Positions 27,287 to 40,900 of a DNA stretch of 64,000 bases are shown in pieces. Each line of letters starts with the position of its first letter. The first letter of the stretch is position 1. The translations under genes and the position numbers were made by a program. The notes beneath the pieces were generated by a model. That model was given only the letters and a program-made list of their open reading frames with translations. It ran no database searches and was not told where the DNA came from. The stretch is taken from positions 248,001-312,000 of the forward strand of contig NZ_CP023429.1 of the NCBI RefSeq assembly GCF_002327085.1, read 5' to 3'. This stretch comes from Neisseria weixii (GTDB lineage: Bacteria > Pseudomonadota > Gammaproteobacteria > Burkholderiales > Neisseriaceae).

Positions 27287-28303
27287 TTAATCATCATAGC
27301 CATTCGGATTATTACTCACCCAGCGCCATGAATCTTCCATCATTTGGGTTAAACCAAATTGCGCTTTCCAGCCGATTTGCGATTCAGTAAACGCAGGATC
27401 GGCAAAGCAAACGGCAATATCACCATCGCGGCGCGGGTTGATTTGATAAGGAATATCCAAGCCGGAAGCTGCTTCAAAAGCCTTAACCATATCCAAAACA
27501 GAATAACCGTTGCCCGTGCCCAAATTATAAATATGTACGCCTGATTCTTTTGCTTTAGCTTGCATGGCCTTCAAATGACCACCGGCCAAATCAACCACAT
27601 GGATATAATCGCGTACGCCCGTGCCGTCGGGTGTAGGATAGTCATCGCCGAATACCGACAAATAAGGCAGCTTGCCTGAAGCCACTTGGCAGATATAAGG
27701 CAGCAGATTATTTGGAATACCATTAGGGTATTCACCAATCAAACCACTTTTGTGCGCACCAGCCGGATTAAAATAACGCAGTAAAATCACACTCCAGCGT
27801 GGATCCGATTTTTGAATGTCGGCCAAAATCCGCTCGACCATATATTTGGACGTGCCGTAAGGATTGGTGGTACCGCCGACGGACATATCTTCCGTAATCG
27901 GTGTACGTGCCGGGTCGCCGTAAACGGTAGCCGACGAGCTGAACACGATGCTGAACACGCCTGCCTTAGCCATTTCTTCGGCCAAAATCAGGCTGCCCGA
28001 TACGTTGTAATCGTAATATTTCATCGGCAGTACATTGCTTTCACCCACTGCTTTTAAGCCGGCAAAATGCATCACCGTTTCAATTTTGTGTTCGGCAAAA
28101 ATCTTTTGCAGCATGGCACGGTCGCGGATATCGCCTTGGTAAAAAGTGATATCTTTACCGGTAATTTCTTTTAAGCGCGGCAGAATCTTGGCACTGGAGT
28201 TGCACAGATTATCGAGAATCACGACATCGTAGTCTGCTTCAATTAGTGAAACGGCAGTGTGCGAGCCGATAAAGCCGGTGCCCCCTGTGATGAGAATGGT
28301 CAT
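27287..28303 (-). CDS. galE: UDP-glucose 4-epimerase
   Basis: 338 residues, intact. Interconverts UDP-glucose and UDP-galactose (or the GlcNAc/GalNAc forms in some homologues). Motifs: [46 protein letters not shown] (catalytic Tyr-x3-Lys, about residue 148), RYFNPAGAH and [13 protein letters not shown]. In the meningococcus galE lies in region D and serves lipooligosaccharide and capsule. Here it is between the region-A synthesis genes and rfbB. Confidence 0.96.
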
Positions 28304-28350
28304 TGTTTTTCCTTGTTACAATTTTAGGTTATGCCGTCTGAACTGCTTAA

Positions 28351-31196
28351 CTACATAAAATCTTGGTATTTATCAGTTAAATGTTGCAATATGGAGTTAT
28401 TTACTTTTTTACCTTGCTGATACAAATCGGTTTTTCTAAAAGTATTGTTCCAAACGTGCATGGCATACATATTATTGGATAAATTACGCTCATCGAAGTT
28501 TTGATCTAGAAGCATTCTTCTCGTCTGTATGGCGTTTAAGCCATAAAAGTAATAATAAGGTTTGGCAAACTTATCCAAGTTGAAATAAAGCAAGGCTTTC
28601 GTTAAACCTGTGGGGCCGCTTGATTCACCCCAAAGCGTATGTTCGCGGCCCAAACCTTTTTCAATGCGTTTCTGTTTTCGTTCAATATCCTGCACCGTAT
28701 CCCAAGGTAAAATCTGATTAGGGTTTTGGCTCATAAACTCCATCAACTCCACCAAATGATGATGGGCGGGAAATTTCAATACCGCATTGGCTACAGCATG
28801 GCCTTCATAGCCGAATACATAATCTTCTTTCGTAAAATCAAACGGTTTTAAGCAGATTTCATCCATATCCACCCAGTAGCCGCTCTTCATGGCAATCATT
28901 TTCCATCTGAACCAATCTGAGAAGTGGGCGGGTGAACCGTGTGAATAGAAAATATCTTTTTCGGGCAAGATCTCATTGCCGTCTTTAACAATCACGCCTT
29001 TGGGGATATTTTTCAAATCCTGGTAAGTATATAAATGCACTTCGTGGCCGTGATACAGGTAAGATGCCAAACACAGTTGCTGGACGATGCCCAAGTCCTT
29101 GCCAATCCATAAAGACTGGATAGTGTCTTTTACGATAGGTGAGCTATTTTCCGTATCAAATTGTTTTTTATCTAAATAATCAAACCAAGAAGAGAATCTG
29201 AGCGCATCAATCTCTGCCAGTTTTGAGCGGCCGGACACAAACAGATCTTTGGCTTCTTTGTTCAGATTTTGCGACAGTTTTTCATGAATTAAGATATTCA
29301 AAGGTTTATTGTCGGTTGTGCTATTTCTTAATGCTGCTGTTACGGTATTTTCGGATTTAATCCATTTTTCCCTATATAAATTCCAATACTTAATTGTTTC
29401 ATCATAGTTATTAAGGCATTGGCTGATTTTTGCCAATTGCGCCAATGAAGCATATGGTGAGTTGCTGCTTGGGTTGGGCAGGTTCTGTTTATGATAGGCC
29501 AAAACATCTTCGTATAAGCCCAAGCTTTGTTTTAAATAAATAACATGATGCTCATTGTTTTTATCCTTGCCAAATCTGTTGCAGTAGGTTTCGTAATAAG
29601 GATAAGCCGTATCAAAATCAAAATTTTGACACATCGTTACTGCCAAATATCTATGTGCCAGCTCAAGATCCGGGAATTTATCGGCAAATTCATGACCATA
29701 CTGAATAGCTTTATCTATCTGATTATCTCCCTTTAAACTGGTAATTTGTAAGGCATAAGATACCGGCAAATTTGGGAATGCCTGAAACAGTTTTTCTGCA
29801 AATATGGCTGCTGATTTCCAATCCTGCTCGTATTGATAGACATTAACCAATCCCTCCAATCCCCGATGGCTTTTTGGGGATAATTTTTGCAGCATTTTAA
29901 ATTCATTTCTTGCTTCTTCGTAGAGAGACAGGTTTTTATAAGCATGACCAGCCCACCAATAGCTGTGCCATAAATCTGGAAAACGCTCTCTGAATTTATA
30001 GGACCTTGAAATTACTTCTTCCCAACGGCCTTGTTGCTGGGCGACATTAACCATACCTTCCAAGCCGTGGTGCAGATGTGGCAGCTTTTCAGTCATTAAT
30101 TGAAATTGTGCTTCTGCTTTATCATATTGTTTTAGATTTTTATAAGCTTGTCCCGCCCACCAATATCCTTGCCACATATCGGGCTTCATTTTTTGCAATT
30201 GAATGGAATATGCAGCGGCCTTTTCCCAATTCTTTTGCTGGTTGGCAAGTTCTGCCAAACGTTGTATTTCTCTAGAGTCTTTCGAGAAATCTTCTGTCAT
30301 TGATTGAATTGGTTTCCCGGTATTTATCAGTATGCAAGCATTGCGGTTTTCTACCTTTAATTGTTTATCCAACTTTTCAGTAAAGATTTTGTTGCCGTAT
30401 GCCAGCGAGACATACAAGTCATAAATTCCTAGTTCGAACTGGTAGGTTTCAATGCCTTTTAGCCCAGTGTGGCAAAATAACTGGCATTATAATCACTTGT
30501 CGGGTTTCCGATTTTGAATCCGAGATTGTTTTTGCGCACTTGTCCCAGCTCAAACACATATTGGCGTTGGGTGATTAGTTTTTGGGCAATTAGATAATAC
30601 TTGCCTTGTGTAAAGTTGCTTAATGGTGCATCAGGAACGATAAACTCGCCTTCAACATGAAAAACCGTACCCTTGGTCCAAGAGTTTTCTATACTGATAT
30701 GGCTGTTTGCCGGCGCATTGCTGCCGAAAATGTCTTTTTTTGCAAGGTAAACTTTGCCGCTCTCTTCAAATAAGCGGCATTCGAAAAAATCATCCGCCGT
30801 ATGCTTGTCCAAATTCACGCTTGCCATTACCAAACCGGTGTAGTTGCGGACATTTTTATCGGGCGAAACGGAAATTTGGATTTCATAAATGCCGTCGTTT
30901 AAGAAACCGATATCGATGCCTTTAAAACCTATGGTTGCCGTACCGGCTGCCGTATAGTTGTAATTTTTGCCATTGTGAGGTTGGTTTGCCAATTCACGTT
31001 TGGGCACTGTTCCCAGTTCAAATTCTGCTTCACAGTCATTGAGTAAGTTTCTGAATTTGATATGTTTGTGCAAATAGCGATAGTCAGGAGCATCATAGCC
31101 TTGTAAATAGGCAAGTCCTTCGATAAAGAAAATAGTTTTAGCTATCCAGATTTTCTCAATTTTATTGATCGGAATGTGCTTGGTTGGGAAATTCAT
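28351..31196 (-). CDS. Large capsule glycosyltransferase: duplicated beta domain, TPRs, GT32-like domain; one frame break
   Basis: Restored length about 948 residues. N-terminal part: a repeated beta-rich module, with FELG at about residues 59-62 and again at 215-218, each followed after about 20-30 residues by AT(I/L)G(F/L)KGI and GIY. Middle (about 300-590): TPR-type helices, including the near-identical YWWAGQAYKNL and YWWAGHAYKNL. C-terminal part (about 690-800): SLWIGKDLG, HGHEVHLYTY, FSDWFRWKMIA and YWVDMDEICLKP, the DXD-containing core of GT32/Och1-like transferases. The frame changes near 30463 (TLG then LKGIETYQFELG), consistent with one missing C. Product probably adds a sugar to the capsule repeat; the specificity is not readable. 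Confidence 0.75.
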
Positions 31197-31273
31197 AGTA
31201 AAACCTCAGTTAAATATTTTTTAATGAGTAAAACGGTTGTGTCGGTTGGCAGGCCTTGTTTTTCAGACGGCCA

Positions 31274-32313
31274 TTAAATCCGTTGTTTAATTTTCAGTTC
31301 ATCTTGAAAGGTTTGTGACAAAATCTGTGCGGTATACATAAATTTTTCTTTGTTACCTGCGACTAATGCATCCAAACAAGCCCGGATCAGGCTGTTGGTT
31401 ACCAAACGTGTGTAAATATATTTTTTGTGCTTTTGAATAAAGTCTAAGGCCGTCTGAAAAATTTCTTCTTTTTCGTCTTCGTTATAAAACACAAATTCAC
31501 GCAGATAAATCAGTAAATCATGGTTCATATAAAATGCGATTTGATAGGCTTTGCGTAGTTCCGGAATATATTGCCACAAGCTATTGATGGCAGCCATGCG
31601 TCCTTGAAAATTACTCACGGATTTGGTTGTGGTGATGGTGGTTTGGCTGCCGTAAATCAGCCAGACATACACGCGGGTGTCAATCAGGCCGATACGGCCG
31701 AGTTTGGAATAAAGCTTGGCGGTGAAAAGTTTGTCTTCGTATAAGCCGGGCTCAAAATAGAGAACCAAGTCTTTAAGCATTTGCACTTTATAGAGCTTGT
31801 TGGTGGACAAGGTGTCATCAAACAGGGAAAGGCGGTTGGCGAATGTGCTGATTTTTGGGGCTTTATACAAACTGCGAAACCATTCGCTTTCCATACCGCT
31901 TTCAAAATCTTTGCGCACGGTTACGCCCGACACACAGTCGAGCTGGTGCTTTTCGGCATAGGCCAATAATTTTCCTAGTGCGTCGGGGCAGATCAGATCG
32001 TCTGAATCCAAAAAGAAAATATATTCGCCTTTGGCATGGCGGATGCCGAAATTGCGTGTCAGCCCAAGCCTTCGTTATCTTTATAAAAATAACGGAAGCG
32101 CGGGTCGTTGAATTCTTTTACGATGTCTTCCACCGTTACGGTGTGGCCGTCATCAACAATCATTACGTCGAGATTGGTGTATTGCGACGCTTGAATAGAC
32201 TTTAGTGTTGCCGGTAGGGTGGTACGCGAGTTGTAGCAAGGCACGAGTATGGAAATAGTGGGCGATTTGCCGGTTTTTTTGGTTTTTCTTAAGAATTTAT
32301 CAAGAAAGCTCAT
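31274..32313 (-). CDS. Glycosyltransferase family 2 protein, one frame break
   Basis: Restored length 346 residues. GT-A fold: ISILVPCYNSRTTLPATL (about residues 19-36), VMIVDDGH (nucleotide-binding Asp), DNEGLGLTRNFG across the break, and YIFFLDSDDL (DXD, about residues 95-104). The C-terminal half resembles capsule and teichoic acid GT2 enzymes. The frame changes near 32063, consistent with one missing C. It starts 11 bp after the polymerase gene, so it is probably co-transcribed. Donor and acceptor unknown. Confidence 0.85.
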
Positions 32314-32324
32314 GTTGTTTTCCC

Positions 32325-35301
32325 TTATGTGTTTGTTTCGGTATCAAGCTGGCTGATCAATTTGTCCCACTGGGTGAATACGCTGGCGTTAGAGAAAGAT
32401 TCAAACGTAGCTTGAATTGCGCTTGCTGATAAAGTATCGGTTTGGTTGAGTGCATCCACAACGGCGGGATAATCGCCATAAGCCGTAAGAAAACCTGTTT
32501 CGCCGTGTTTGATAATTTCTTTGGCGGCGGTAAACGAATCAAAGGCAATCACGGGGCGGCCGTGTGCATAGGCTTCCAATACCACAAGCGGAAAGCCTTC
32601 CGATTTGCTCATCAAGAGCAGGGAATCGTTATCGCTGAAGATTTTTCTTTGTTGCTTTCAAAACCGTGCAGTTTGAGCACATTTTGCAGGCCGTTATTTT
32701 TTAAGGCCGTCTGAAACTCATCTTTTAATGCGCCATCGCCATAAATATTGATAACGATACCGGCATTTTGTTTGATGATTTCTTTGCCCAAATCAATCAT
32801 GCTGAAAATATTTTTGTCTTCGTCGAGCCGGCTGATAACGGCGGTGTGCAAGGGATTTTGCGGAGCAAGCGCTCGGTATTGCGCATCGATGGAGTTGTGT
32901 ATGTAATCCAGTTTGTTTTGCACTTCTTTCTCTAAATGCGGGCGCAGCAAATCCACCGACGATTGGGTGAGCAACAGCAGACGGCGGTAGTTGTAAAGTT
33001 TGCCTTCATTGAGCCAGCCTAGGTGCGGACCGTACATTTCACGGGAGACAATGTCTTTAACGTCGCCGTGGAACATCAATACGGATTTTGCATTTTCCAG
33101 ATATTTTTGGAAATGCAGATGGGCGGAAAATTGCAAAGAGATCACAATGCCGTCTGTATTCTGCAAAATATTGGCGCACGCCCCGTTGAGATATTGTGCC
33201 GATAATTTGAAATCAATGTAGGGGCTTTGCAGTTGATGGAATTCGCTGTTGGTTTCGGCAAACTCGCGGATGGCGATAACAAAAATACGGGCGTTGTATT
33301 TTTGTTTGTAGTGTTTCGCCATGTTTTGCAAAAAGCTATGCACGCCGCCGATTTGGTTTAACTCGTTTACCAAGAAAATGATGTCTTTGCTGTGGCGGTG
33401 CGTCGGGTCAAATGCCAACGCTTCTACAATGCGTTGGGTGGATTGCCCGTCTTCCAAAGGATAGAACGTATCGGTAATTTTGTGGTTATCGCCGCTTAAA
33501 CCTTGCCAATCAAGCTGATACAGAGCCTCTTCGCTTTTGATGATTTGTTTGGCAGGCAAATAGTAACTAAAGTTAAAATACACGCCGCGCTGATTCATAT
33601 AATCTTCATAATCATATTGAAACAAAACAATCGGTTTATGAAGCAGGGCAAAGTCCAGCACCAATGATGAATAATCGCTGATCAGAATATCGGCAATTTT
33701 CATTAAGTCGGCAATATCGAATAGGCGGTGCAGTCGATTACATCATCGTATTTTTTGTTCAGATGATTCAGATAGTGCAGTTTTGTGATGATAACGTATT
33801 CATTATTCAGGCTTTCAAGCAGGGTTTGCGGGTTAAACGGCAACGCCATGACACCGGCCTTGCGGAAAGTCGGTGCATAGAAAATGATTTTTTTGTTGTG
33901 CGGAATGCCCAGCGATGTTTTTAAGAATGTTGAGCCGATGTTTTCGTGTAAGGCGAAATCCAGGCTGTATTGCTTGAGCTGTGCCCAATCCAACGCGCAC
34001 AAAGCATCTTCGTTATCAGCGGTAAACGGGCGGCGGTGCAGAATCTGCAATTCTTGATAACGTTGTGCGTGATCTTTTGCAAATATTTCATGATCGTAAT
34101 GGAACAAGGCCACCGGGCGGTTGTATTGGTCGAAAGTGTAAATCAACGGGTTGTAGTCGCTGATGAGAATATCGGCAAGCAACAAAGCGTCGCTGTTATT
34201 TAAATCGGCGGTGTAATACACGCCGGCCGGCGGATTGCCGGGGATGGTATTGGTTTGGGAAGCCAATAAAACCAGCAGGCAATAATAATAATCGCTGCCA
34301 AAGGTAGCCAACAGGCGCGCGGCGTCAAATGGCAATACCATTTCGCCAGCCTTACGGAATTCAGGCGCATAGAGAATGATTTTGGCGTGTTCGGGCAGGC
34401 TGATGCGTTCACGCAATCGTTTCAGGCGGTCTTGATTATCTTCTTGGCGGAACAGTTTGTCGGTTTTGGCACAACCCAATTGTAAGATTTTCCCGTCGTA
34501 ACGCATGGCGCCGCGCAAGAACACATCGGTATAAAAATCCGACATGGAAATCATGCAGTCATAGGCGAGGTTGTAGCGGATGGCTGTTGCCAGATGTTTG
34601 ATATCCAAATCGGCAAACATTTTCTTGTAGGGAATACCGTGCCACACCGAAATCCAAGTGTTGGTGTCGGTGATGCGGTAGCCGTAATTCATTGTGCCGG
34701 CATCAATCACATAATCAGCAGTAAATTTCAAAAACTCACCGAATGATGAGCCGTTTTTTACCAACGTGTGTGTGCTGCGGTAAACAATATCCTCGCTTAA
34801 ATGGCGGATGATAATGTAGATGTTGAAATCGTTTTTGTAGTATTCAATGAATGAGTCAATATCCGCCATAACACGGTAATTATAATCAGACGGAATAAGC
34901 AGTAGTTTTTTCTTCAGTGTAATACCTAACGAACGGGTTTCACCACTTTGGTTAATACGAGGTACGGTAATTGGTTGGGTAGTTGCCAAAACTGATGAAG
35001 CATGATGTGTTTTGCTATTAAGTTGACGATTACATTGCTGCAGTTGGATTTGCCATTGTTGGTTATAAGGCGCAAGAGTAATCGCTTTACTCAGGTAAAA
35101 TTGTGCTTCGTGGAGATTGCCAAGTTTTAAGTGGCATAAGCCTAGTTTGAAGGTATTTTGGGCGTGTTGAGGCTCAATATCGTAAACACTTTGAAAAATT
35201 TCCAAAGCTTGTTGCCATTTTTTTTTGCGGTAAAATATCAAGCCTTTGCGATAGCCGGCCGGTGCGGTAATGTGATAGTAGGAGTTTTTTAAAAATTTCA
35301 T
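32325..35301 (-). CDS. Multidomain capsule polymerase: TPR, TagF-like CDP-glycerol glycerophosphotransferase, GT4; two frame breaks
   Basis: Restored length about 992 residues. Residues about 25-90: TPR-like helices. About 130-300: TagF N-terminal half with the catalytic-type WHGIPYKKMF (His about 221). About 308-440: a TagF C-terminal half with YAPEFRKAG and a degenerate ISDYNPL. About 472-610: a second C-terminal half with FYAPTFRKAG and a canonical ISDYSSLVLDFALLHKP. About 640-990: GT4 domain with FLVNELNQIGGVHSFL, SRLDEDKN and the E-x7-E type SEGFPLVVLEAYAHG. Breaks near 33719 and 32643 fit single-base losses in G and A runs. TagF-like polymerases build teichoic-acid-like capsules in Gram-negatives (Litschko and colleagues). 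It acts on CDP-glycerol from the upstream gene at 36580. Confidence 0.8.
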
Positions 35302-35308
35302 AAGATAT

Positions 35309-36576
35309 TCAATCCAAATGTTCGCCGTATTCGCGCAACACGCTTAAATAGCGTTCAGGCGGCCTTTTACCTGTATGTAGGGAAAAGGTAATTTTTTTAT
35401 ACAAATAAATCAAAAATTCATCTTGTGAGATGATTTCCATGTTGGGTGTATCTAATGCACTATCAAATGATAATTGCGGTGTGCGCCAATCTCCATAATT
35501 TTCAGTAAGATATAGATCGTAATCAGCGGGAATTAGATAATGGCCATTTAAAAATGGCCGGCTAGTTAACTCAAAAGGCGAGTTATGCCATTTGCTTTTT
35601 CCGCCTGCGTGCCAATAATCATTTTCTTCACGGTAATGGATGAAAATATCGATCGTAATGCCGTTCACATGGCGAATAACTAAAATATCAGGGCTATAAA
35701 TAGGTAAAACATAAAAACAGCCACTGCTATAAATTTTATTAGCTAATCCGCTAACTGAATGGGTTTCCCAAATACCTATGTCAATGTCTTTATCATGTCC
35801 TAGTAATTTACCTTCACGGATGCAGCCGAGTAAAGTTCCGCTGATAAGAAAGAAATCAATCTGGTGAAGATCAAAAAAATTTTTCAAATCACTGAGCGCC
35901 TGTGCTGCTTTTTTATCACTATATTGGCGAGAAGTAGGAGGCTTTGCTGGTTGGGTAGGAGGATTTTGGCAAAGAAGACAATATTGTTTTCGCCAAAAAT
36001 TTAAAACAAAAGTTGTCTGTTGGGCACGTGTTGCAGCAGTAGATAAATGACAGGATAAATCATAAGAAAGGGGCTTTTTGCCGTAATGATTATGTGCATT
36101 CACAAATAATTCGTAAAAACGATCAAAATCAGCTTTTGTTTCTACTAGGTTAGACAAATATTGCCATGTTTTGCCACGTTGACTCTGTTGAAGAAATTTT
36201 TTTAATAAATCAAAAGCTTCCTCTTTTTGATTATTTCTATATTTAATTTCTGACAGCAGGTACAGGCCTTCTGCATGGCATGGATACGCTTGGCAAAACC
36301 GGAGTACATGATGTTCGGCTTTATCAAGCTTATTTTGTAAAAATAAGCTTTGGGCCAAATATAAATCACCAACATTTATTCCTTGAGCAATCAGTTTTGG
36401 GCATTTTTACGGATATTCCCATGTAAAGGTATGCTGAAATCTTTATGAATGAAATAAAGGTATAAATACCACTTACACGGTATGCGCATGCCTTTGGTGT
36501 GTCGGAAAATATTCAATATGATTTTTATTAATGCATATTGCCGGAGATAATTAGTTAAGGAGTAGAATAAAGACAT
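35309..36576 (-). CDS. TPR protein with LicD-like phosphotransferase domain, one frame break
   Basis: Restored length 422 residues. The N-terminal 130 residues or so are TPR-like helices (LAQSLFLQNKLDKAEHHVLRF and similar). The C-terminal half has the LicD/nucleotidyltransferase-fold signature: FFLISGTLLGCIREGKLLGHDKDIDIGIW (shown here in words: Gly-Thr-Leu-Leu-Gly-x5-Gly, then the Asp-x-Asp metal pair) and ITIDIFIHY (third Asp). LicD proteins transfer phosphocholine or other phosphosubstituents to surface glycans. The frame changes near 36396 (NAQ then LIAQGINVGDLYLAQS), consistent with one missing A. It begins 3 bp after the cytidylyltransferase gene. Confidence 0.75.
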
Positions 36577-36579
36577 ATT

Positions 36580-36987
36580 TCAAAAGCCGGAATCAGCTAT
36601 TTTGCCGGATAGAGCTTCTTTTGTTTGCGTGGTAGAAATACCTTCTGTACGAGGTAGGTATACTACTTCACAGTAATCTTTAAGAAAGTCAAATTTTCCA
36701 GCCCAGTCATCACCCATGACAAAAATATCAATATTGTTTTCCTGTACATCTTTGATTTTTTGTTCCCAAGATGTTTCAGGGATGACTTTATCGACATATT
36801 GAATAGCATTGACGATAAAGGCTCGCTCTGTATAAGGATAAGCGCACACCTTGCCTTTACCTAAATTGAACTCATCAGTAGAGATGGCGACAGTTAAGTG
36901 ATCGCCTAGAGCTTTTGCTCGCGCTAAAAGGCGAATATGACCATGATGGAGTAAATCGAATGTGCCGTAAGTTAATACTTTTTTCAT
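36580..36987 (-). CDS. Glycerol-3-phosphate cytidylyltransferase (TagD-like)
   Basis: 135 residues, intact. Makes CDP-glycerol from CTP and glycerol-3-phosphate, the donor for the TagF-like polymerase. Motifs: VLTYGTFDLLHHGHIRLL (HxGH, about residues 14-17), DHLTVAISTDEFN, YTERAFIVNAIQYVDKVIPE, GDDWAGKFDFL and RTEGISTTQTK (ISTT signature). Start taken at 36987 (MKKVLTYGTFD), which matches the family length; an in-frame extension to 37080 would add an unlikely hydrophobic leader. It is the promoter-proximal gene of the leftward capsule operon, as expected for a first committed step. Confidence 0.93.
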   Translation of the reverse strand: MKKVLTYGTFDLLHHGHIRLLARAKALGDHLTVAISTDEFNLGKGKVCAYPYTERAFIVNAIQYVDKVIPETSWEQKIKDVQENNIDIFVMGDDWAGKFDFLKDYCEVVYLPRTEGISTTQTKEALSGKIADSGF

Positions 36988-37040
36988 TTTTTTTGTTGTC
37001 CCGGTAATTAATAGTTTGTTGTTGTATCTATAATAATGGA

Positions 37041-37068
37041 TTACAAACCCAAGTAGATAACATATAAT
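37041..37068 (+). promoter_or_regulatory. Candidate ctrA promoter
   Basis: -35-like TTACAA (37041-37046), 16-bp spacing, -10 TATAAT (37063-37068), 36 bp before the ctrA ATG. The 117-bp region 36988-37104 separates the divergent synthesis and export operons. A second TATAAT occurs at 37029-37034. Confidence 0.4.
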
Positions 37069-37104
37069 TAGCCAAAACATAATTCTAGTTGATTAGGTTA
37101 TATT

Positions 37105-38276
37105 ATGGAAGTAAAACAAATATCTTCTTTCATCATTTGTGGTTTGTTGTTTGTTATGGTGACGGCATGCAGCAGTATTCCTTCATCAGGCCCAAGTGCA
37201 AAAAAAGTTATCTCGTTAGGCCAACAGTCTGAAACTCAAATTCCTGAAGTGGAGTTGATTGATGTCAATCATGAGGTGGCACAATCGTTGTATAAGGCTC
37301 AGGTGAGTCAGTCATTCACTCAGTTTGGTGACGGCTATGCTTCGGCCGGTACGCTGAACGTTGGTGATGTATTGGATATTATGATTTGGGAAGCACCGCC
37401 GGCTGTTTTGTTTGGCGGTGGTATTTCGTCGATGGGTTCGGGCAGTGCGCAGCAGACCAAACTGCCGGAGCAGTTGGTCACGGCGCGTGGTACGGTTTCT
37501 GTGCCGTTTGTTGGAGATATTTCGGTGGTCGGTAAAACACCGGGACAAGTTCAGGAAATCATCAAAGGCCGTCTGAAAAAAATGGCGAACCAGCCGCAAG
37601 TGATGGTGCGTTTGGTGCAGAACAATGCGGCGAATGTGTCGGTTATCCGTGCGGGGAATAGTGTGCGTATGCCGTTGACGGCAGCCGGTGAGCGTGTGTT
37701 GGATGCGGTGGCTGCTGTGGGCGGCTCGACGGCAAATGTGCAGGATACCAATGTACAGCTGACACGCGGCAATGTGGTGCGGACTGTTGCCTTGGAAGAT
37801 TTAGTTGCCAATCCGCGACAGAATATTTTGCTGCGCCGTGGTGATGTGGTGACGATGATTACGAATCCTAATAGCTTTACGTCTATGGGGGCGGTAGGTC
37901 GTACGCAGCAAATTAATTTCTCGGTTAAGGGTTTGTCTTTGGCTGAGGCGGTAGGCCGTATGGGTGGTTTGCAAGACCGGCGTTCTGATGCGCGTGGCGT
38001 GTTCGTGTTTCGTTATACGCCGTTGGTGGAGTTGCCGGCTGAGCGGCAGGATAAGTGGATTGCACAAGGCTATGGCAGTGAGGCGGAGATTCCGACGGTT
38101 TACCGGGTGAATATGGCTGATGCCAATTCTTTATTTTCTATGCAGCGTTTCCCGTGAAAAATAAAGATGTATTGTATGTATCGAATGCACCTTTGGCTGA
38201 AGTGCAGAAATTCTTGTCGTTTGTGTTCTCGCCGGTTATGAGTGGTGCGAACAGTATCAATAATTTAACTAATTAA
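37105..38276 (+). CDS. ctrA: Capsule polysaccharide export outer-membrane lipoprotein CtrA, one frame break
   Basis: Restored length 390 residues, as in meningococcal CtrA. A Wza-type outer-membrane lipoprotein that forms the exit channel for capsule. Signal peptide with lipobox VTAC (Cys about residue 22). Polysaccharide export motif VGDVLDIMIWEAPP (about 88-101), VSVPFVGDISVVGKTPGQ, and the SLBB-type repeats IRAGNSVRMPLTAAGERVLDAVAA and GLSLAEAVGRMGGLQDRRSDARGVFVFRY. The frame changes near 38150 (SMQRFP then VKNKDVLYVSNAPLAEVQ), consistent with one missing G. First gene of the ctrABCD operon. Confidence 0.95.
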
Positions 38277-38292
38277 TGTGGGAATAAGTAAG

Positions 38293-39456
38293 ATGTCTGA
38301 GCAGCTTCCTGTGGCGGTTGTCGCTGAAACTAAAACCGAGAATAAGAAGCCAAAGAAAAAGGGGTGGTTGAAAAAAGTAAGCCCTTTATTTTGGGTGACG
38401 GTGATTATTCCTACTGCGATTTCGTTGGTGTATTTTGGTTTCTTTTCTTCCGAACGCTTTACTTCGCAATCGAGCTTTGTAGTGCGTTCGCCGAAAAGCC
38501 AATCTTCGTTGAATGGTTTGGGTGCAATCTTGCAGGGCACAGGTTTTTCCCGTGCTCAGGATGATATTTATACGGTGCAAGAATATATGCGTTCCCGCTC
38601 GTCTTTGGACGAGCTGCGCAAAACTTTGCCGGTTCGTGAATTTTACGAAACCAAGGGAGATGTGTTCAGCCGATTCAATGGCTTTGGACTGCGTGGTGAG
38701 GAAGAGGCTTTTTATCAATATTATAAAAATAAGCTGAATATCAATTTTGATGCGGTTTCAGGTATTTCCACGTTAAATGTAACGTCATTTGATGCGCTTG
38801 AGTCTAAAAAAATCAATGAGGCTTTGTTGAAACAGGGTGAAGCCTTAATTAATCAGCTGAATGATCGGGCGCGCTCTGATACGGTACGCTATGCGGAAGA
38901 AGTGGTCAAAACGGCTGAGGAACGCGTGAAGGAGACTTCTCAGAATCTGACTGATTACCGTATTTCAAATGGTGTTTTTGATTTGAAAGCACAATCAGAA
39001 GTGCAGATGGGTTTGGTGTCTAAGTTGCAAGATGAGTTGATTGTGATCCAAACCCAGCTTGACCAGGTGAAAGCGGTTACACCGGAAAATCCGCAAATTC
39101 CAGGTTTGCAAGCCCGTGAAAAAAGTTTGCGTAAGGAAATTGCCCAGCAATTAAGGGCAATTTCGGGTGGTGGGCGGTCTTCATTGTCAAATCAAGCCGC
39201 AGATTATCAGCGTGTATATTTAGAAAATCAGTTGGCAGAGCAGCAATTGACCGCTGCTATGACCTCTTTGGAGAGTGCCAAGGCTGAGGCTGACCGACAG
39301 CAGCTTTATTTGGAAGTAATCTCGCAACCGAGTCTGCCGGATTTGGCGCATGAACCTAAACGTTTATACAACATTGTCGCCACTCTGATTATCGGTTTGA
39401 TGGCTTATGGTATTTTGAGCCTGTTGACTGCCAGCATTCGTGAGCATAAAAACTAA
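38293..39456 (+). CDS. ctrB: Capsule export inner-membrane protein CtrB (PCP type 3)
   Basis: 387 residues, intact. Periplasmic adaptor between the CtrCD transporter and CtrA. One membrane segment near the N-terminus (FWVTVIIPTAISLVYFGFF), a long periplasmic coiled-coil region (about residues 190-340, rich in Glu/Gln/Lys), and a C-terminal membrane segment (YNIVATLIIGLMAYGILSLL). The start at 38293 (MSEQLPVAVVAETK) is preferred over an upstream ATG at 38278. It overlaps ctrC by one base (TAATG). Confidence 0.95.
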   Translation: MSEQLPVAVVAETKTENKKPKKKGWLKKVSPLFWVTVIIPTAISLVYFGFFSSERFTSQSSFVVRSPKSQSSLNGLGAILQGTGFSRAQDDIYTVQEYMRSRSSLDELRKTLPVREFYETKGDVFSRFNGFGLRGEEEAFYQYYKNKLNINFDAVSGISTLNVTSFDALESKKINEALLKQGEALINQLNDRARSDTVRYAEEVVKTAEERVKETSQNLTDYRISNGVFDLKAQSEVQMGLVSKLQDELIVIQTQLDQVKAVTPENPQIPGLQAREKSLRKEIAQQLRAISGGGRSSLSNQAADYQRVYLENQLAEQQLTAAMTSLESAKAEADRQQLYLEVISQPSLPDLAHEPKRLYNIVATLIIGLMAYGILSLLTASIREHKN

Positions 39457-40253
39457 TGAAAGCGTTGCATAAAACATCATTTTTGGAATCTTTGGCGATT
39501 CAAAGGCGTGTGATTGGCGCACTTTTGATGCGGGAGATCATCACCCGCTACGGTCGCAACAATATCGGCTTTTTATGGTTGTTTGTCGAACCGTTGCTGA
39601 TGACATTGTTTATTGTCTTGATGTGGAAATTTTTAAGGGCAGAACAATATTCGACTTTAAATATTGTGGCATTTGCGATTACCGGCTATCCGATGATGAT
39701 GATGTGGCGTAATGCCTCTAATCGGGCAATAGGTGCTATTTCTTCAAATGCCAGCTTGCTTTATCACCGTAATGTCCGGGTGCTCGATACCATCTTGGCG
39801 CGCATGATTTTGGAAATTGCCGGTGCAACCATTGCGCAAATTGTGATTATGGCCGTATTGATTGCTATCCGTTGGATTGAAATGCCGGCTGATATTTTCT
39901 ATATGCTGGTGGCTTGGCTATTGATGGCGTTTTTTGCCATCGGCTTGGGTTTGGTGATTTGTTCGATTGCCTTCAATTTCGAGCCATTCGGTAAAATTTG
40001 GGGAACATTGAGCTTTGTTATGATGCCGTTATCGGGCGCATTCTTTTTTATCCATAATTTACCACAACAAGTGCAAGAATATGCATTAATGATACCGATG
40101 ATGCATGGTACAGAAATGTTTCGTGCGGGATACTTTGGCAGTGATGTGATTACCTATGAAAATTCCTGGTATATCGTTTTGTGCAATTTGGTCTTGTTGC
40201 TGCTTGGCTTGGCCATGGTCAGTAAATTCAGTAAAGGGGTCGAGCCACAATGA
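39456..40253 (+). CDS. ctrC: Capsule ABC transporter permease CtrC
   Basis: 265 residues, intact; KpsM/ABC-2 family with six hydrophobic segments. Typical N-terminus ([27 protein letters not shown]), [17 protein letters not shown] and [14 protein letters not shown]. It forms the membrane channel moving the lipid-linked capsule across the inner membrane. Overlaps ctrB by one base and ctrD by four (ATGA), so translation is coupled. Confidence 0.96.
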
Positions 40254-40900
40254 TTTCGGTTGAACATGTTTCCAAGCAGTATCAGATGCGTGGTGGTATG
40301 CGGACTGTATTGGACGATATTAACTTTTCACTGCAAAAAGGTGAGAAAATCGGTATTTTGGGCCGAAACGGTGCCGGCAAATCGACTCTGATCCGTTTGA
40401 TTAGCGGTGTCGAGCCGCCAACTTCGGGCGAAATCAAGCGAACCATGAGCATTTCTTGGCCGCTGGCGTTTTCCGGTGCCTTCCAAGGAAGCCTGACCGG
40501 GATGGATAATCTGCGTTTTATCTGCCGGATTTATAATGTCGATATCGATTATGTGAAAGTGTTTACGGAAGAATTTTCGGAGCTGGGGCAATATTTGTAT
40601 GAGCCGGTGAAACGCTATTCTTCAGGTATGAAAGCGCGTTTGGCTTTTGCGCTGTCGTTGGCGGTGGAGTTTGACTGTTACCTGATTGACGAAGTGATTG
40701 CGGTGGGCGACTCACGTTTTGCAGCTAAATGTAAATATGAGCTGTTTGAAAAACGCCAAGACCGTTCGATTATTTTGGTGTCGCACAGTCACAGCGCGAT
40801 GAAACAGTATTGTGATAATGCCATGGTATTGGAAGCGGGGAAGTTGTACCAATTTGATAATATGGATGAAGCTTATCAATATTATAATGCTTCGGTATGA
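40250..40900 (+). CDS. ctrD: Capsule ABC transporter ATPase CtrD
   Basis: 216 residues, intact; KpsT-type ATPase. Walker [10 protein letters not shown] (about residues 38-46), ABC signature [10 protein letters not shown] (about residues 122-131), Walker [13 protein letters not shown], switch His in [11 protein letters not shown]. Energises export through CtrC. Last gene of the operon, followed by a strong DUS terminator. Confidence 0.97.

Follow-up and report, generated by a model that had tools for sequence, protein, structure and literature searches.

A fragmented polymerase gene in a group 2 capsule locus

The window, i.e., the whole 64,000-nucleotide stretch analyzed here (bases 248001-312000 of a single 2.51-Mb contig), carries a capsule locus (27287-40900) in which three minus-strand ORFs (33703-35301, 32612-33703 and 32325-32615) are pieces of one polymerase gene (Table 1). 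An unbroken homologue of 988 aa from a Neisseria sp. MAG (L020, 6004-8970) spans all three frames in tblastn with 85, 94 and 90% identity respectively, and the two frame breaks lie near 33.70-33.72 kb and 32.61-32.66 kb. The coordinates given for this gene in the original prediction thus hold. Over the locus as a whole there are five frame breaks in four genes: two in the polymerase gene and one each in the GT2, TPR/GT32-like and ctrA genes. The assembly is rated 85% complete, so sequence errors are a possible source of the breaks; rpoB and alaS, the housekeeping genes inspected in the same assembly, both have open frames.

Table 1. Polymerase domains and neighbouring genes in the window
Feature	Position	Strand	Basis or remark
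Polymerase gene, three frames	32325..35301	(-)	ORFs, tblastn
N-terminal TPR module, short (about 80 aa)	35017..35259	(-)	Pfam; HMMER alignment to Cps3D 15-100
TagF acceptor (N-terminal) half, WHGIPY	34444..34914	(-)	PF04464; borders transferred from L020
U1, first TagF donor half, degenerate (YAPEFR, DYNP)	33955..34443	(-)	Pfam; borders transferred from L020
U2, second, canonical TagF donor half (YAPTFR, KLHY, DYSS, C-terminal FYPxExG stretch)	33416..33954	(-)	One frame break inside
GT4-type (GT-B) glycosyltransferase domain (RLDxDK, EX7E)	32325..33403	(-)	Pfam, fold match; one frame break inside
GT2 glycosyltransferase gene	31274..32313	(-)	One frame break; homologous to C-terminal GT2 of Gram-positive/archaeal fusions
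CpsC-like TPR and LicD-type transition transferase gene, 5' part unclear	35309..36358	(-)	tblastn to L020 and A. capsulatus homologues
Glycerol-3-phosphate cytidylyltransferase gene, TagD-like (CDP-glycerol supply)	36580..37080	(-)	Pfam, tblastn
TPR/GT32-like gene, possible capsule modification	28351..31196	(-)	One frame break; TPR by Pfam
Capsule export genes, presumably ctrA-D	37105..40900	(+)	One frame break in ctrA

The locus also holds galE, and the export genes are, by their position, presumably ctrA-D. The TagD-like homologue of L020 matches TIGR01518 above the cut-off. In the CpsC-like ORF of the window, LicD gave no Pfam match at 0.001; LicD was found in its homologues. No Pfam glycosyltransferase match was obtained for the TPR/GT32-like gene, whose GT32 label is our guess from the gene order in Table 1 of PMC6202450.

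A second donor half in the TagF region

The polymerase consists of a TPR module, one TagF acceptor half, two TagF donor halves (U1 and U2) and a GT4 domain, which in the numbering of L020 occupy residues 15-95, 128-284, 285-445, 446-625 and 630-988 respectively. PF04464 was found twice, at profile positions 26-302 (acceptor plus first donor half) and, in the next ORF, at 266-365 (second donor half). The protein has a single WHGIP motif but two YAPxFRKAG/ISDY units, the first with DYNP and the second with DYSS. Pfam and these motifs confirm a TPR-TagF-GT4 polymerase with one acceptor half, as had been predicted. The duplication of the TagF C-terminal half, proposed at the same time with a degenerate first and a canonical second copy, is likewise confirmed: profiles of U1 and U2 aligned over 150 columns with an E-value of 5e-33. 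Moreover, the U1 profile on its own found TagF (residues 520-647, E 4e-14), TarL and Cps3D in the PDB, with E-values from 4e-14 to 1.4e-13. For the GT4 motifs RLDxDK and EX7E we follow the meaning given in PMC11666461, whose authors modelled residues 15-100 of Cps3D as an N-terminal helical bundle.

The same layout is found in seven unbroken homologues of 984-995 aa. Four are from Neisseriaceae (G009, G012, G037 and G066) and three from Conservatibacter flavescens, Actinobacillus capsulatus and genome G142, which we take to be Pasteurellaceae. Since all seven are encoded in one frame, the duplication is not an assembly artefact. U1 was present in 5 of 83 genomes of the window's family (window counted) and in at least 3 of 140 genomes of the A. 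capsulatus family, where 99 of the 140 gave some match at 0.001; among the matches listed, most were to the GT4 or donor part alone. A search of 368 other genomes of the class (two candidates per genome scored) found no further case; plasmids yielded three weak records, none spanning 80% of the first ORF, and when the 3' part of the A. capsulatus gene was compared with E. coli genomes at the DNA level, nothing matched. A contig scan relied on two peptide patterns and yielded at least 11 loci. In Stenoxybacter acetivorans, a segment of similar length lies at the same position but has no detectable homology to U1, suggesting that the sequence there may be hardly constrained. Classical enzymes with a single WHG-YAP-DYSS set, encoded beside the same TagD and CpsC genes, occur in other members of both families, namely G018 (Neisseriaceae), G093, G096, G119 and G155, and the two scanned with Pfam have one full-length PF04464 stretch each. 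Judged from sequence, the duplication is thus real and conserved across several Neisseria- and Pasteurella-family bacteria. As for its age, a tree of 175 columns, from which the unalignable Stenoxybacter segment was left out, allows the long U1 branch to join U2 or a deeper position, and none of three alternative topologies for the origin of U1 was rejected (AU p 0.49, 0.36 and 0.60).

The N-terminal module is mosaic. Between the window and L020 it is 58% identical, the acceptor half being 96% identical (window 33706-35301). Between Conservatibacter (L018) and Neisseriaceae genome G009 (L065) it is 99% identical, with acceptor halves at 90%. The module may be exchanged as a cassette.

The two donor halves differ at the active site. 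H609, S647, S648 and D652 of Cps3D are among the key CgoT residues (PMC11666461). By alignment to the G093 homologue, which carries the Cps3D numbering, H/S/S/D stand at these positions in 8/8 U2 copies (Stenoxybacter included) and in 11/11 single-copy enzymes compared. None of the seven intact U1 copies has any of the expected residues, with A/S/P, N/H, P/T/E and T/Q/L found instead, and the FYPxExG stretch that ends U2 is absent from U1. U1 is probably not a second active donor site: the donor and catalytic residues on which such a role would depend are lost in 7/7 intact copies, and this part of the original prediction is not supported. Nevertheless U1 is maintained. Its dN/dS was 0.10-0.34 in six of seven pairs (dS was saturated in the seventh), whereas U2 gave 0.07-0.12 (four of five pairs) and the N-half 0.03-0.12 (six of seven); these values are rough because dS was near or above 1 in most pairs. 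By these ratios U1 is under purifying selection. A maintained dead donor half inside an apparently working GT-B enzyme is solid at the level of sequence.

The predicted structure fits this picture. An AlphaFold model of L020 (m79e2ec965b79; 10 alignment rows, pLDDT 79.7, pTM 0.65) was superposed on TagF (3l7j) over residues 127..633 with 339 residues aligned (rmsd 3.3 A, Z 26.6) and on TarL over residues 128..627 with 323 residues aligned (rmsd 3.4 A, Z 24.1). From these aligned lengths we infer that U1 was skipped, as only the first and last residues of each alignment were reported. The acceptor half and U2 fit one GT-B fold in the model, with U1 as an extra domain; a single continuous GT-B domain without duplication, the outcome that would have spoken against the predicted architecture, was not seen. 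Six of the 10 alignment rows had a single donor half and no U1, which biases the model toward pairing the N-half with U2. A second model, whose five alignment rows each contain the middle segment, was of too low quality for use (pLDDT 46.9), and the four other models of the first run ranged from 71 to 64. Four other TagF entries fitted worse (rmsd 5.3-7.4 A, over ranges starting at 64-94), whole Cps3D deviated by 16.5 A, and whole-chain Foldseek comparisons gave 10.6-15.6 A for TagF and 20.6 A for Cps3D. The GT4 part of L020 matched TarM (Z 28.6, rmsd 3.7, 338 residues) as well as other GT4 enzymes.

Proposed mechanism and the role of the extra donor half

We consider it likely, with a probability of roughly 0.7, that the protein is a TagF-like/GT4 polymerase of an ABC-exported group 2 capsule, in which the N-half and U2 would form the working donor site and U1 would be a dead domain with a structural or docking role. 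Glycerol-phosphate transfer would be carried out by the acceptor half together with U2, the GT4 domain would add a hexose with retention, and the two activities together would lengthen an oligo(glycerol-phosphate) linker made by the CpsC-like enzyme of the adjacent gene. U1, which duplicates the donor half and sits between the acceptor half and U2, would have lost donor binding and catalysis and have been retained for structure or docking. The neighbouring GT2 probably attaches one more sugar to the same polymer.

Alternation of glycerol-phosphate and hexose, as originally proposed, stands by homology: Cps3D and Cps7D, which are single-copy enzymes, alternate glycerol-phosphate (TagF domain) with galactose (GT4 domain) (PMC5974469, PMC11666461 and PMC8262930), and HS1.09 does so with glycerol-phosphate and galactose (PMC11924219). 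What does not stand is the 1.5-copy layout as its basis, because the argument comes from the TagF plus GT4 homology to Cps3D and HS1.09 and not from the duplication.

The linker step draws on CpsC, the enzyme responsible for the poly(Gro3P) linker of A. pleuropneumoniae (PMC11666461). A CpsC gene is present in 9/9 extra-segment loci and in 5/5 classical loci, and CpsC pairs at 80, 83 and 86% identity each join a U1-type with a classical locus. Such close pairs cross the polymerase types, which makes it probable that a common linker is extended by both. The 86% pair consists of L068 8485-9759 (classical, Neisseriaceae) and L018 4727-5992 (U1-type, Conservatibacter).

The priming enzyme CpsA was not found in the window's genome. 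In the stretches examined, full-length CpsA occurs in two of three Pasteurellaceae U1 loci and in 4/4 classical Pasteurellaceae loci, and is absent from 6/6 extra-segment Neisseriaceae loci and from the sole classical Neisseriaceae locus. Where CpsA was matched to the donor halves, it matched U2 and not U1. We rejected the idea that U1 substitutes for a missing CpsA primer, since CpsA presence follows the family and not U1. The Neisseriaceae loci with CpsC but without full-length CpsA number seven: the window, L020, L021, L065, L066, L067 and L068.

Could U1 itself be active, with the N-half working alternately with U1 and U2 to add two different phosphate units? U1 retains YAP and ISDY and is under purifying selection, and WHG and the first YAP are as far apart in the seven intact proteins (88-95 aa) as in single-copy enzymes (88-94 aa). 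However, the His, both Ser and the Asp are gone from every intact copy, with varied replacements; U1 has no counterpart of the C-terminal stretch of U2; and the mean pairwise identity of U1 (45%) is below that of U2 (64%). We regard an active U1 as highly improbable. Quite improbable as well, though somewhat less so, is that U1 is a functionless relic in decay. U1 is the fastest-evolving part of the TagF region and is unrecognisable in Stenoxybacter, as a relic would be, but it has stayed in frame with its length kept in 7/7 intact genes of two families, its dN/dS is well below 1, and it has conserved motifs of its own (R..EL and W).

A special form of the structural/docking reading has U1 take the place of the long TPR solenoid that classical enzymes carry (about 190-330 aa) and hold the chain or partner enzymes. 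The TagF part begins near residue 119-131 in U1 enzymes (112 in Stenoxybacter) and near 384 or later in classical ones; in the Gram-positive/archaeal proteins, which have neither TPR nor U1, it starts near 0. In a classical Neisseriaceae protein outside this comparison (L068), the PF04464 stretch begins at 487. In favour of the idea, the long TPR is required for linker extension in Cps3D and Cps7D, whose TPR truncations no longer elongate poly(Gro3P) (PMC11666461). The idea nonetheless rests on one evolutionary contrast, and the net charge of U1 (-7 to +1 in the seven intact copies) makes it neutral to acidic rather than a basic polyanion-binding surface, which speaks against plain polyanion binding. 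The N-terminal module kept by U1-type enzymes has a pI of 7.8-9.9 in eight proteins. We hold the replacement as a tentative and rather doubtful refinement of the structural/docking reading.

Lineage and comparison with known systems

In a core tree of 649 columns rooted on the classical type (five sequences), the U1 clade and Stenoxybacter group with a support of 99.5/96. The U1 clade joins TagF-GT4-GT2 proteins of Methanobrevibacter filiformis and a Bacilli MAG (87.6/82); fusions from three other Firmicutes-type MAGs join next, and U1 clade and fusions together are set apart from the Cps3D/7D type (100/100). The fusions (L022-L028), the closest relatives of the U1-type polymerases, come from M. 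filiformis, an archaeon with three such loci, and from Firmicutes MAGs. Six of them are 40-51% identical to the L020 polymerase in the alignment, and the three scanned with Pfam have no TPR, one PF04464 stretch, GT4 and a C-terminal GT2. L028 (4240-8007) encodes a protein of 1255 aa in which LITDYSSV occurs twice and WHG once, perhaps two TagF-type units in a single chain.

A separate GT2 gene adjoins the polymerase gene in 9/9 extra-segment loci and hints at a third polymer component. The matching GT2 is fused in 6/6 Gram-positive/archaeal homologues tested, the L020 copy being 34-41% identical to the fused ones, and was found in none of five classical loci. Two of six fusion loci have a TagD-like gene, one locus has two further PF04464 genes adjacent, and ORFs resembling ABC exporters could be read from the ORF lists. 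CpsC gave no match in six fusion loci tested; since several of the contigs are short, little can be read into absences there. M. filiformis was the sole match among 138 genomes of its family, with 0/137 others matching at E 1e-60.

One evolutionary scenario is that the U1 enzymes form a third TagF-like lineage derived from a Gram-positive/archaeal TagF-GT4-GT2 synthase of the teichoic-acid type that Neisseriaceae and Pasteurellaceae acquired, in which a TPR module was gained, GT2 was released as a separate gene and the dead donor copy took over chain-holding, the product having glycerol-phosphate plus two sugars per repeat. The direction of transfer would follow from the nesting in the tree. 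We think this scenario unlikely as a whole.

Genes of this kind have been catalogued before. A survey of non-pathogenic Neisseria from 2018 (PMC6202450) describes a CDP-glycerol glycerophosphotransferase with GT4 (NEIS2939) and a GT2 (NEIS2940) for N. animalis, N. bacilliformis and N. elongata subsp. nitroreducens. The pair follows TagD-like and phosphotransferase genes, and the four genes shared between these species show 78-83, 42-47, 56-58 and 61-64% identity. The first two genes in related loci are reported there to have identity to cshA/cszA and cshB/cszB. The polymerase/GT2 pair of the window is probably NEIS2939/NEIS2940, matched by annotation and gene order rather than by accession. 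The accessible portions of PMC6202450 and of the other papers cited contain no mention of a duplicated donor half. In the open-access literature we found no report of the 1.5-copy layout or of TagF-GT4-GT2 fusions, and no activity or polymer structure of a U1-type member, the N. animalis and A. capsulatus capsules included.

The enzyme thus appears to belong to a known polymerase class as a conserved variant that, within the reach of the literature searches, has gone unremarked. An enzyme class used for in vitro synthesis of vaccine antigens gains a conserved, putatively pseudo-catalytic domain, and Gram-negative capsule synthesis is linked to Gram-positive and archaeal TagF-GT4-GT2 proteins. 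According to Litschko et al. (2018), a possible role of TagF-like polymerase homologues in type II wall teichoic acid synthesis needs further study; the fusions, two of them beside a TagD-like gene, make that question testable.

Several features place the enzyme in the TagF-like capsule polymerase class of Litschko et al.: i) it has a PF04464 domain; ii) the class catalytic residues (the WHG His, the C-half His, DYSS and the Asp) are supplied by the N-half and U2 in 8/8 intact proteins including that of Stenoxybacter, U1 lacking them; and iii) a GT-B domain, here GT4, follows TagF in one chain, which in the window is split by the frame breaks. By homology it would polymerize from CDP-glycerol and a nucleotide sugar. 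Like Cps3D and Cps7D of A. pleuropneumoniae and HS1.09 of C. jejuni HS:1, it has an N-terminal helical module, TagF and a C-terminal GT4, encoded in a group 2 capsule locus with a CDP-glycerol synthase gene and, as in the A. pleuropneumoniae clusters, CpsC. It falls outside that subgroup, with two donor halves instead of one, a TPR module of about 80 aa instead of a long TPR domain, and a position in another clade. That the layout is unusual, as originally suggested, was borne out by HMMER, in which profile positions 288-455 have no counterpart in Cps3D, and by the description of HS1.09 in PMC11924219.

To S. epidermidis TagF and S. aureus TarL the likeness lies in the sequence and predicted fold of the N-half plus U2. 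Those two enzymes are not known to have a U1, GT4 or TPR. The M. filiformis/Firmicutes fusions share the GT2 but carry it fused, and have neither TPR nor U1.
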